DNA of 64,000 nt, from positions 62,001 through 126,000 of the forward strand of contig NZ_JPFZ01000013.1 in the NCBI RefSeq assembly GCF_000722775.1, written 5' to 3'. The notes under the pieces were generated by a model, which saw only the letters and a list, made by a program, of their open reading frames with translations, made no database searches and was not told the DNA's origin. The stretch is from Streptococcus mitis subsp. hohhotensis. Lineage in GTDB: Bacteria > Bacillota > Bacilli > Lactobacillales > Streptococcaceae. Below, piece by piece: positions 40,522 through 43,584 of this stretch (within the stretch, counting starts at the first letter, position 1; each line of letters opens with the position of its first letter). The position numbers and the translations under genes were made by a program.

Positions 40522-43182
40522 TTACAGCCATTCTTGATATTTCTTGATATAGATTTTTTTCACAATTGTCACACTAATCATATACAAAATAATGATGAAA
40601 AGTAAAAAGATGAAATAAATCGGTTTTAAAGGAGTTAGATGGAGAAGGCTAGCTAGTGGACTGTAGGGAAGGAAGGTCACAAAGGCTGCAGCCAATAAGG
40701 TTGTCACAAGGACTAGCCAAGCTGGACGACTTTGTAAAAAGGGAATTTTGGCTGAACGCAGCATATGGATAACCATGGTCTGTGACCACATGGACTCGAT
40801 AAACCAACCTGTCTGAAACAAGACAATAAATCCTACGGCAGATTCTGCCCCATGAACATAGGCTTGACCTGTCGTCATGGGTACAATGATAAAATAGAGC
40901 AAAATAAAGGTCAAAATATCAAAGGCAGAAGATATAGGCCCCATCCAAACCATGAAACGTGTGATGGACTTAGCTTCCCAGGTATGCGGATTTCTCAAAA
41001 AATCTTTATCCACCTTGTCAAAAGGCAAGGCAATACAAGACAAATCATAGACTAGATTTAGGATAATCAAATGGACTGGTGCCATTGGTAAAAATGGCAA
41101 AAAGATTCCAGAGACCAATAGGGATAAGATATTCCCAAAATTAGAACTCACTGTCATTTTGATATATTTAGTCATATTGGCATAGACCTTACGCCCTTCA
41201 ACAAGTCCTTTTTCAAGCACCATGAGATCCTTATCAAGTAGGATAACATCAGCTGTTTCTTTGGCAATATCTACTGCTGTATCAACAGAAATCCCCACAT
41301 CTGCAACTTTCATAGAAGGAGCGTCATTGATTCCATCCCCCATATAGCCTACAGCATGACCATTAGCCTTAAATTGCAAAATAATCCTTGCTTTTTGGTC
41401 AGGAGAAAGTTTGGCGAAGACGGTTACCTCCTCTACGGCTTGGGCCAATTCTTGATCACTCATCTGATCAATTTCAGATCCTAACAGCATCTGATTGATA
41501 TCCAAACCAACCTTTTCACAGACTGCTTGGGTAACTTTTTCGTTGTCTCCCGTCAAAATCTTTGTTTGAACCCCATGCTCTAACAGAGCCTTAATTGCTG
41601 GTGCAGCAGATGGTTTAGGAGGATCTAGGAAGGCTAAATAACCAGTTAGAATCATATCCCCTTCATCATCAACTGTATAGGCATGACCTTCCTTCAAACC
41701 TGACTTATAGGCCACTCCTAAGACACGCAAACCTTGTTGATTTAGTTGTCTGACTTCTGTTAAAATTTCTTCTCTAATAACATCTGTCAAGGGAGTAGTC
41801 ACTCCTTGGTATTCCGCATAACTGGAAATCGTCAACATTTCCTCTAGGGCACCCTTGGTTACCAAACTAACAACTTCGTGTTCATCCTTAACGATAACAC
41901 TCATCCGTCTACGTTCAAAATCAAAGGGAAGCTCATCTATTTTTTGAAAAGTTTGAGCCAGATTTTGTAAGAGGGTGTGTTCTTTGGCTTCCTTTTCAGT
42001 CCGTTTGATGATGGCTCTGTCCATCAAATTTTTCAAGCCCGTTTGAAAATAAGAATTGAGATAAGCTCGTCTCAAGACGGTCAAATCCAAGCGTCCGTGG
42101 ATGTCCAAGGGATATTCAAGGACAATTTCGTCTTGGGTTAGAGTTCCTGTCTTATCTGTACACAAAATATCAATCGCCCCTAAGTCCTGTATGGCATTGA
42201 GTTTCTTGATAACTACTTTTTCCTTGGCCATAATGATGGAGCCCTTTGCTAGACTGGCCGTGATAATCATAGGAAGCATCTCAGGTGTCAATCCAACACC
42301 AACACTCAAAGCAAATACGCCAGCTTCTAACCAATCTCCATCTGTTAAACCATTGGACAAGAAAACGATGGGCACCATGACCAGCATCAAACGAATCAAG
42401 AGCCACGAAATACTATTCATCTCCCGCTCAAACGAAGTAGGCTCGTCATAGGTGTTCAAAGTCTGCTCAATGGCCCCCATCATGGTATCATCACCAACTG
42501 CTAAAACCACGGCCTTGGCACTACCAGACAAGACATTGGTTCCCATAAAGGCGAGCGCTTCTGCTTCTAGCAGACTATCAGATTGTTGAACTGTTGCCTT
42601 GGTCAAGGCCAATTTTTCAACCGATTCACTTTCACCTGTCAAGCCCGACTGTTGTACAAAGAAATCGCGCGACTCAAATAAAAGAAGATCTGCTGGAATC
42701 ATGTCTCCAGCGCTTAATTTAACCACGTCACCCACTACCAAATCATCGATAGGTACTTCTTGAATTTCTCCTTGACGAATGACAGTCGCTGTGTTGACAA
42801 TCATTTTTGATAGATTGGTCGCAGCCTTATCACTACGTAGTTCTTGGACAAAGCGTATGCCACCAGAAATGAGGACTAGGACAACGATGATTATAGAAGT
42901 CGTCGGATCCTCTTGACCTGGTTTTGCCAACCAGACATTGGTCACCAAGGAAATCACGGCGATGACCAGTAAGATGATCGTAAAAGGATTGATAATGGAT
43001 TCGTAAATTTTTTTGAGGATACTGTCTTCTTGACCCTTTGTGATGGTATTTTCACCATATAGGTCACGATTTTTCTCCACCTGCTCCTCAGTCAAGCCTG
43101 TTAGACTTGTCTTATAAAAAGATAGAGTTTCGTTTAAAGATGTATGAATAGCTGTTGCTAATCTTTCTTTTGTTGTTTTCAT
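40522..43182 (-). CDS. mgtA: Magnesium-translocating P-type ATPase
   Basis: 886 residues, P-type ATPase of the MgtA/MgtB (P3B) class that imports Mg2+ using ATP. Domains in order: actuator with LTGESE, phosphorylation site Asp343 in CTDKTGTLT, nucleotide-binding domain, TGDNEKV and GDGINDAPS hinge motifs, and ten membrane helices. GGAG lies seven bases from the ATG. It is a single-gene unit with its own promoter, M-box riboswitch and a small leader ORF. This gene is not remembered between spx and pepP in S. pneumoniae, so it may be strain specific. Confidence 0.95.
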   Translation of the reverse strand: MKTTKERLATAIHTSLNETLSFYKTSLTGLTEEQVEKNRDLYGENTITKGQEDSILKKIYESIINPFTIILLVIAVISLVTNVWLAKPGQEDPTTSIIIVVLVLISGGIRFVQELRSDKAATNLSKMIVNTATVIRQGEIQEVPIDDLVVGDVVKLSAGDMIPADLLLFESRDFFVQQSGLTGESESVEKLALTKATVQQSDSLLEAEALAFMGTNVLSGSAKAVVLAVGDDTMMGAIEQTLNTYDEPTSFEREMNSISWLLIRLMLVMVPIVFLSNGLTDGDWLEAGVFALSVGVGLTPEMLPMIITASLAKGSIIMAKEKVVIKKLNAIQDLGAIDILCTDKTGTLTQDEIVLEYPLDIHGRLDLTVLRRAYLNSYFQTGLKNLMDRAIIKRTEKEAKEHTLLQNLAQTFQKIDELPFDFERRRMSVIVKDEHEVVSLVTKGALEEMLTISSYAEYQGVTTPLTDVIREEILTEVRQLNQQGLRVLGVAYKSGLKEGHAYTVDDEGDMILTGYLAFLDPPKPSAAPAIKALLEHGVQTKILTGDNEKVTQAVCEKVGLDINQMLLGSEIDQMSDQELAQAVEEVTVFAKLSPDQKARIILQFKANGHAVGYMGDGINDAPSMKVADVGISVDTAVDIAKETADVILLDKDLMVLEKGLVEGRKVYANMTKYIKMTVSSNFGNILSLLVSGIFLPFLPMAPVHLIILNLVYDLSCIALPFDKVDKDFLRNPHTWEAKSITRFMVWMGPISSAFDILTFILLYFIIVPMTTGQAYVHGAESAVGFIVLFQTGWFIESMWSQTMVIHMLRSAKIPFLQSRPAWLVLVTTLLAAAFVTFLPYSPLASLLHLTPLKPIYFIFLLFIIILYMISVTIVKKIYIKKYQEWL

Positions 43183-43196
43183 TGGTTTCTCCTATC

Positions 43197-43220
43197 TGTA
43201 TGAATGATGTGTTTCATACA
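43197..43220 (-). other. Hairpin just upstream of the mgtA ribosome site
   Basis: TGTATGA/TCATACA, 7 bp with a 10-base loop, ends four bases before the GGAG. A competing stem, AGCGATTGG with CCAATCACT, includes leader-ORF codons and spans its stop. Confidence 0.5.
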
Positions 43221-43235
43221 CAGAGACCAATCACT

Positions 43236-43307
43236 TTATAAGGGCAGAACGACACAAATCAGCGATTGGCTGTGTATGTGCGGTTCCGGATGGTCGTCAA
43301 TTTGCAT
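43236..43307 (-). CDS. 23-residue leader peptide ORF upstream of mgtA
   Basis: Reads MQIDDHPEPHIHSQSLICVV and three more residues, then TAA. It has an excellent AAGGAG seven bases from its ATG. It starts after the M-box terminator and ends 53 bases before mgtA. Residues 3-9 alternate acidic and proline (IDDHPEP), similar in character to the E. coli MgtL start MEPDPTP, whose Asp/Pro run destabilises ribosomes in low Mg2+. An MgtL-like role is inference from position and composition; it is not homologous by sequence. Confidence 0.6.
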   Translation of the reverse strand: MQIDDHPEPHIHSQSLICVVLPL

Positions 43308-43340
43308 CGTCTGTCTCCTTTCTTTGTTTTAAACAGTAGA

Positions 43341-43366
43341 AAATCCCACCATAAAATGGCAGGATT
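43341..43366 (-). terminator. Terminator of the M-box riboswitch
   Basis: AATCCtgCCAT/ATGGtgGGATT on the minus strand, then TTTTCTACTGTTT. It follows the aptamer and is the likely expression platform; the T-run is short. Confidence 0.6.
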
Positions 43367-43389
43367 AAAAAACTAATTATCTGTTTTTC

Positions 43390-43530
43390 GTTCAAGCTTT
43401 AACTCCATAGGGCAATGAAATGAGCTTAGTCTTGGCCTTCGCGACCAGGACTGTTGACCAACGAGTAGTGTCTCCACTGCTTTGCGGTAGTCATCCGTAT
43501 CCCTATGGTAGCCTCACCTACCGTTTTCTT
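43390..43530 (-). promoter_or_regulatory. M-box (ykoK) magnesium riboswitch
   Basis: The minus strand contains the conserved blocks GGTAGGTGAGGCTACC, AGGGATACGG, GGTCAACAGTCC and, at the 3' end, CCCTATGG-AGTTAAAGC in the right order and spacing for the M-box aptamer. High Mg2+ should fold the aptamer and favour the terminator, turning mgtA off. Confidence 0.85.
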
Positions 43531-43535
43531 CTTTC

Positions 43536-43564
43536 AGTATAAACCTTTAAAATTTAAAAGTCAA
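43536..43564 (-). promoter_or_regulatory. mgtA promoter
   Basis: TTGACT (43559-43564), 17-base spacer, TATACT (43536-43541) on the minus strand, close to consensus. Confidence 0.85.
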
Positions 43565-43584
43565 TTATTTGAGTTGTTTAACTC

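Follow-up and report, generated by a model that had tools for sequence, protein, structure and literature searches.

Bacterial Mg2+ transport genes are known to be controlled both by short upstream ORFs (uORFs) that monitor translation and by RNA aptamers. In Escherichia coli, low Mg2+ causes ribosomes to leave the leader peptide MgtL at its EPDP segment, and Rho termination is thereby prevented (PMC11282234). In Salmonella, mgtQ, an 8-aa uORF located between mgtC and mgtB, exerts its effect at the level of translation through pairings of regions 1:2 and 3:4 that compete with a 2:3 pairing; ribosome occupancy of region 1 favors the 2:3 pairing (Choi et al. 2021; PMC8092293). The ykoK M-box of Bacillus subtilis, on the other hand, is a transcriptional OFF switch at high Mg2+, and in Mycobacterium tuberculosis the pe20 M-box is followed by a conserved uORF (uORF2/Rv1805A) whose peptide has no known role (D'Halluin et al. 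2026; PMC12810186). The mycobacterial riboswitch controls the uORF itself, via sequestration of its Shine-Dalgarno (SD) sequence and Rho, and the gene concerned is not mgtA. Among the matches listed in our search of the full-text literature, pe20, with its M-box and conserved uORF, is the nearest published case, and no acidic leader ORF was reported either downstream of an M-box or ahead of mgtA in Gram-positive bacteria, although most subscription papers lie outside this literature, which hence provides no proof. The terms mgtA, magnesium and riboswitch are all absent from the main text of a paper on ribosome profiling in pneumococcus (PMC9426450), the main text of PneumoBrowse 2 (PMC11701578) does not contain mgtA, and, of the eight uORF candidates put forward in a 50-genome survey, those shown in the available part of the text differ from the uORF analyzed here (PMC11109978).

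Here we analyze the mgtA leader contained in a stretch of 64,000 nucleotides from Streptococcus mitis subsp. hohhotensis (contig NZ_JPFZ01000013.1, positions 62,001 to 126,000), which we refer to as the window. All the leader parts named in the original prediction, which had proposed an M-box riboswitch followed by an MgtL-like leader ORF and two competing hairpins, are present on the minus strand (Table 1), including the 23-codon ORF with its IDDHPEP start and a good ribosome site. Upstream of the leader, on the same strand, lie uvrA and a peptidase-like gene for which the family search returned no family over its cut-off.

Table 1. Elements of the mgtA leader in the window; functional roles are those proposed in the text
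Feature	Position	Strand	Basis
Promoter-like site, TTGACT-17-TATACT	43536..43564	-	10/12 matches to consensus; no significance by itself
M-box (ykoK) Mg2+ riboswitch aptamer, RF00380	43377..43527	-	86 bits, E 1.5e-18
Terminator-like hairpin with weak U tract	43330..43366	-	11 bp, 3-nt loop; predicted fold
uORF Shine-Dalgarno, AAGGAG	43315..43320	-	7 nt ahead of uORF ATG; relatives compared
uORF, ATG start, 23 codons, MQIDDHPEPHIHSQSLICVVLPL	43236..43307	-	ORF list, relatives
IDDHPEP, uORF codons 3-9, proposed pausing/drop-off site	43281..43301	-	Role proposed from MgtL and MgtQ
Region 1, 5' arm of helix P1, spans uORF start codon	43299..43310	-	Covariation
Region 2a, 3' arm of helix P1	43249..43260	-	Covariation
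Region 2b (A), putative anti-sequestor arm within uORF	43261..43278	-	Pairing with region 3
Region 3 (B), predicted partner of A (ON) or of mgtA start (OFF)	43215..43235	-	Predicted helices
Region 4 (C), mgtA Shine-Dalgarno and start, AGGAGAAACCAAT	43181..43193	-	Sequence, predicted helix
mgtA, Mg2+ P-type ATPase, 886 aa	40522..43182	-	TIGR01524, 1074 bits, cut-off 611

The presence of the aptamer is well supported by a covariance-model search, in which the M-box of the window scores 86 bits against a gathering score of 44; it is the only one found in the genome, and a Mg2+ transport gene (mgtA, TIGR01524) lies downstream of it on the same strand. It belongs to the same aptamer family as the B. 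subtilis ykoK riboswitch, behind which we know of no acidic uORF. The flanking signals are less clear. The promoter-like site, which ends 8 nt upstream of the M-box match, does agree with the consensus at most positions, as the designation of near-consensus promoter implied, but it is weak evidence alone, because the scan yielded 5 promoter-like sites against 2.7 in shuffled sequences. Similarly, the hairpin assigned as the M-box terminator (AATCCTGCCAT/ATGGTGGGATT, 43366-43342) appears in the predicted fold, but its U tract is poor and it is absent from the list returned by a terminator scan of the window. An alternative upstream start (TTG, 213 nt before mgtA, MNEKQ...) was taken as a chance occurrence; its SD-like GGAG is part of the 3' end of the M-box, and its frame is not kept among relatives.

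The comparison with MgtL on which the original prediction was built holds for the general arrangement. MgtL (E. coli K-12, NC_000913; 17 residues) is also a short leader ORF before mgtA with an alternating acidic/proline start, and the residues involved are E2 P3 D4 P5 in MgtL and D4 D5 P7 E8 P9 in the uORF of the window. A comparison by eye identified no shared sequence beyond composition, however, and the output of MgtL is Rho-dependent termination. The rho family was not found over its cut-off in any of the 25 Streptococcus genomes searched, the genome of the window included; among 16 genomes from elsewhere in the order, 13 have it. The outlet used by MgtL is therefore unlikely in streptococci, and the Rho-type output implied by the parallel was set aside. 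Without Rho, the outlet in Streptococcus must be translation or an intrinsic terminator, and translation is suggested by the helix predicted at the mgtA SD.

The closest known mechanism thus appears, by analogy, to be that of Salmonella mgtQ rather than that of MgtL. In both systems acidic codons occur early in a short ORF, the start of the ORF is able to pair with region 2, the SD of a Mg2+ pump falls, by prediction in the window, in a 3:4 pairing with 2:3 as the alternative, and the output would be exerted on translation (PMC8092293). The two differ in context: mgtQ is an intergenic element of 8 codons in a PhoP/PhoQ operon of a Gram-negative organism, with no riboswitch mentioned in the available part of its description, whereas the uORF of the window has 23 codons and lies behind an M-box in the 5' leader of mgtA, not between mgtC and mgtB.

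We propose that Mg2+ may control mgtA through two successive layers. At the first, ample Mg2+ would fold the M-box aptamer of the window and allow the downstream hairpin to stop transcription, and low Mg2+ would permit read-through into mgtA. At the second, translation of the uORF would decide translation of mgtA. If the uORF were untranslated, or fully translated and cleared, P1 would form in the cell and B would pair with the mgtA SD and start (OFF). Low Mg2+ would instead favor ribosome pausing or drop-off at the acidic/proline codons 3-9. The uORF start would then remain covered and P1 blocked, so that A could pair with B ahead of transcription of the mgtA start, leaving the mgtA SD free (ON). 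Intrinsic ribosome destabilization was reportedly described by Chadani et al. in 2017. We consider the combination of a transcriptional M-box gate with an mgtQ-like gate on mgtA translation, operated specifically by ribosome abandonment of the uORF, to be likely.

An M-box was found in 148 of 284 Streptococcus genomes and mgtA, over its family cut-off, in 151, and all 148 M-box loci were fetched and compared. An SD-led ORF with an acidic start lies 3' of the M-box in 147 of them, as counted with a peptide pattern that was written after the peptides had been viewed, order and SD being checked separately; the remaining locus precedes mgtE. The starts are DDHPEP (130 loci), DDYPEP (8), DDHPSQ (5) and, at one locus each, DDHTEP, DDHPIS, DGHPEK and DDYSEK, and in one case (L240) the ORF extends into masked sequence. 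The uORF is ahead of mgtA within the fetched stretch in 139 of the 147 loci, and in the other 8, of the S. sanguinis type, the stretch stops before mgtA, which a genome search places next. The stacked order of M-box, uORF and mgtA, proposed from a single leader, hence passes the genus-wide comparison, as does conservation of the uORF among related leaders. In one S. sanguinis-type locus (L060) the order is M-box and terminator, a GST-like gene (roughly 200 aa, about 732-1340, PF13409 over its cut-off), uORF and mgtA. Since the uORF of this locus is found beside mgtA, on the far side of the GST-like gene from the M-box, it belongs with mgtA and not with the aptamer. Distances from M-box to mgtA are similarly long in other S. 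sanguinis-type loci.

To extend the comparison to other families of the order, we considered the best matches of four family searches, comprising 103 mgtA loci over cut-off, of which 85 carry an M-box according to a profile built in this analysis. Candidate uORFs were selected with a rule blind to acidity, which ranked them by SD, next by an ATG start and finally by proximity to mgtA. It returned an SD-led uORF in 81 of the 85 leaders (66 distinct by their first 8 residues); the four leaders lacking one are all short. The selected uORFs contain on average 1.79 acidic residues in codons 2-12. The mean is 0.86 for dinucleotide-shuffled sequences (2,973 picks) and 0.37 for the reverse complement (27 picks); a Mann-Whitney test restricted to codons 2-9 gives p 3e-13 and 2e-8 for the two comparisons, and 27 of 29 genera are more acidic than their own shuffles (p 6e-7). 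These figures lean low because the rule picks another frame in L272, L282, L290 and L309, missing clear acidic uORFs. The starts seen include MEDPSQ, MDHPSPQ, MEHPSPS, MDDSSQ, MPGPES, MESSEKPVEHPGP, MPEPDS and MPNADSEP. The acidic start is a trend outside Streptococcus, not a rule: at least two acidic residues in codons 2-12 are present in 37 of the 66 distinct picks and fewer in 29, and some leaders of these families, such as L340-L342 and L354, have no acidic uORF. Outside the order but within the class, six M-box-mgtA loci (L380-L385) present an SD-led uORF starting with MEDGHS, MDDSSSS, MDSSPS or MEGSPS, the acidic uORF being the best ranked by SD in three of them. The leader is no peculiarity of streptococci: acidic uORFs are found, although not in every leader, between M-box and mgtA in other families of the order, as well as at these six loci beyond it. 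What recurs is the acidic start, with no obvious sequence in common; the peptide sequence itself is lost outside Streptococcus.

Control leaders are less acidic. Among mgtA genes without an M-box and Ca-type pumps, the rule returned uORFs in 27 of 35 leaders, with a mean of 0.56 acidic residues, and at least two such residues were present in 3 of 13 M-box-less mgtA leaders and in none of 14 Ca-type pump leaders, from which it follows that the acidic uORF is associated mainly with leaders that combine an M-box and mgtA. A second control consisted of 18 M-box leaders not located before mgtA. One of them (L083, genome G050) is the sole Streptococcus M-box ahead of an mgtE-like gene, and it too has an SD-led acidic/proline uORF (MDNSPVPEPS...). 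The remaining 17 comprise four without a pick and 13 with SD matches of 4-5 bases, of which two (L123 and L130) contain two acidic residues in codons 2-12.

Several additional features were observed. Six M-boxes per genome are present in six genomes of one genus (g19; G395, G402, G421, G468, G481 and G530), and the 30 highest-ranking M-box loci retrieved for the order include 17 with no mgtA match nearby. A hydrophobic, SD-led small ORF of 28-43 aa lies between the acidic uORF and mgtA, or ahead of M-box-less mgtA, in L309, L318, L327 and L330 (85-88 nt before mgtA) and in L302-L304, L307 and L308. Three of these small ORFs were searched and gave no Pfam match over cut-off; in kind they resemble the small proteins MgtR, MgtS and MgtU.

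The composition of the uORF start bears directly on the best surviving alternative, which interprets the uORF as an attenuator for some other translation problem, such as scarce Pro-tRNA or low EF-P or ABC-F activity. Ribosomes would then stall at PEP without drop-off, and the same helices would expose mgtA. Within Streptococcus the prolines are indeed kept (Pro 7 in 138 and Pro 9 in 139 of 139 IDDHPEP-type loci), and there are precedents in Salmonella mgtP of the mgtCBRU leader, which responds to charged tRNA-Pro (PMC8092293), and in the action of EttA on MgtL (PMC11282234). Acidity, however, is more widely shared than proline, as illustrated by the uORFs MDDSWQK, MEEEQEQ and MDDHYQR, which have no proline in codons 2-12, and the partner gene is a Mg2+ pump placed behind a Mg2+ riboswitch. 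We hence regard the attenuator as a possible but unlikely explanation, and favor ribosome abandonment in low Mg2+.

The competing hairpins proposed at the mgtA ribosome site correspond to alternative helices that are both predicted and conserved. The 166-nt stretch containing the hairpins from the ORF to mgtA has a fold z-score of -3.35, and none of 200 shuffles is as stable. Helix P1 joins the uORF start to codons 16-20 (98.9% of alignment cells paired), and helix A:B joins codons 10-16 to the segment just past the stop (97.9%). Each of these two helices shows two pairs changed on both sides and a covariation score that none of 500 shuffles attains, although, as the tool itself warns, relatedness alone can produce such a score. 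In helix B:C the post-stop segment pairs with the mgtA SD and start (89.7%), with little covariation.

When codons 1-9 are blocked in the folding model, the predicted accessibility of the mgtA start increases by a mean of 0.124 in 28 streptococcal-type leaders, Granulicatella and Abiotrophia included, compared to 0.007 in shuffles (p 6e-5), and the gain exceeds 0.1 in 15 of the 28. In 40 of the 85 other leaders, the uORFs of which were chosen with acidity in view, the increase is 0.075 against 0.021 (p 0.04), exceeding 0.1 in 15 of the 40, and the predicted opening outside Streptococcus is weak. For the window itself, the fold with B:C is more stable than that with A:B by 10.8 kcal/mol in the naked RNA and by 1.8 kcal/mol with a ribosome on codons 1-9, and the predicted accessibility of the mgtA start hardly moves; the switch predicted for its own sequence is marginal, falling 1.8 kcal/mol short. 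Segments A and B are transcribed before C, and kinetics could therefore favor A:B.

A ribosome placed at the uORF stop codon also opens the mgtA start, with gains above 0.1 in 18 of 22 computable streptococcal-type leaders (in L002, a footprint at the stop shifts accessibility from 0.41 to 0.72), and for this reason full translation would amount to an OFF state only if termination is fast. The same result is what one would expect from plain translational coupling, in which ribosomes that complete the uORF close to B would melt B:C and so increase translation of mgtA, and the acidic start would only tune uORF output. The distance from uORF stop to mgtA, 53 nt in the window, nevertheless ranges from 9 to 204 nt in streptococcal relatives, and coupling gives no reason for keeping an acidic start. 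On balance we judge it improbable, and retain early abandonment of the uORF as the likely trigger of the predicted switch.

Some loci depart from the common layout downstream of the uORF start. A palindrome-ended insert of about 106 bp separates segment B from the mgtA ribosome site in L026, L027, L036, L037, L038 and L042, and a longer version of it occurs in L242 and L258; the uORF is intact in these loci, and the insert, if self-paired, would leave B:C formable. In S. mitis ColumbLawn (L015/L148), the M-box and the uORF start MQIDDHPEP are kept, the uORF tail is replaced by foreign sequence and segment B is not seen. Judged from its sequence, this strain appears to have lost the translational layer naturally.

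Evidence that the uORF is coding comes from an alignment of 40 leaders, comprising the window and 39 of 80 named loci (near-duplicates, loci with the 106-bp insert, L015 and masked L018 were left out, as were the divergent L075, L076, L078, L080 and L081). Among the IDDHPEP codons, 7 of 7 third positions vary, compared to 2 of 14 first or second positions (Fisher p 3e-4, treating positions as independent), and the only residue changes are H to Y and P to T. This almost purely synonymous change establishes that the ORF is coding, in agreement with the synonymous bias and kept acidic/proline start anticipated for it. The 3' half of the uORF is conserved as RNA rather than as protein and coincides with helix arms.

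Two further explanations fare poorly against these patterns. That the peptide acts in trans, for instance on MgtA, would accord with the near-identity of the 23-aa peptide throughout Mitis-group loci, but past codon 9 both sequence and length differ between clades (18 to 32 codons, and 47 in the insertion-bearing L148), the conserved 3' half coincides with helix arms and the peptide has no Pfam match, making this most improbable. Equally hard to sustain is the notion that RNA structure alone is conserved and the ORF incidental: the helix arms in its 3' half would fit, but codons 4-9 fall outside all three scored helices and change almost only synonymously, SD and start are kept even though both are shifted one codon further up in the parasanguinis and australis groups, and acidic starts recur in genera with no obvious peptide sequence in common, so that an ORF arising by chance or as pure RNA structure was rejected on the strength of synonymous change and recurrence across genera.

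As judged from these comparisons, it is close to certain that a conserved, acidic and coding uORF forms part of mgtA regulation. We put forward with less confidence, but as somewhat better than an even proposition, a broader reading for the class to which Streptococcus belongs: that its M-box-mgtA leaders commonly carry a second Mg2+ sensor, the ribosome itself, and that abandonment of the acidic-start uORF exposes the ribosome site of the pump. Two distant phyla would then use the same nascent-chain trick for mgtA but differ in its output, which is Rho in enterobacteria and would be SD sequestration here, and the chemistry of the leader (acidic, often with proline) would be kept while its sequence drifts freely. 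If this is true, a single transcript would read Mg2+ twice, through an RNA aptamer and through ribosome stability, in organisms that have no Rho and from which, to our knowledge, PhoP/PhoQ is absent. Acidic nascent chains acting as Mg2+ sensors would then be no enterobacterial oddity, and these naturally divergent leaders would provide a ready means of testing which features cause a peptide to shed ribosomes.
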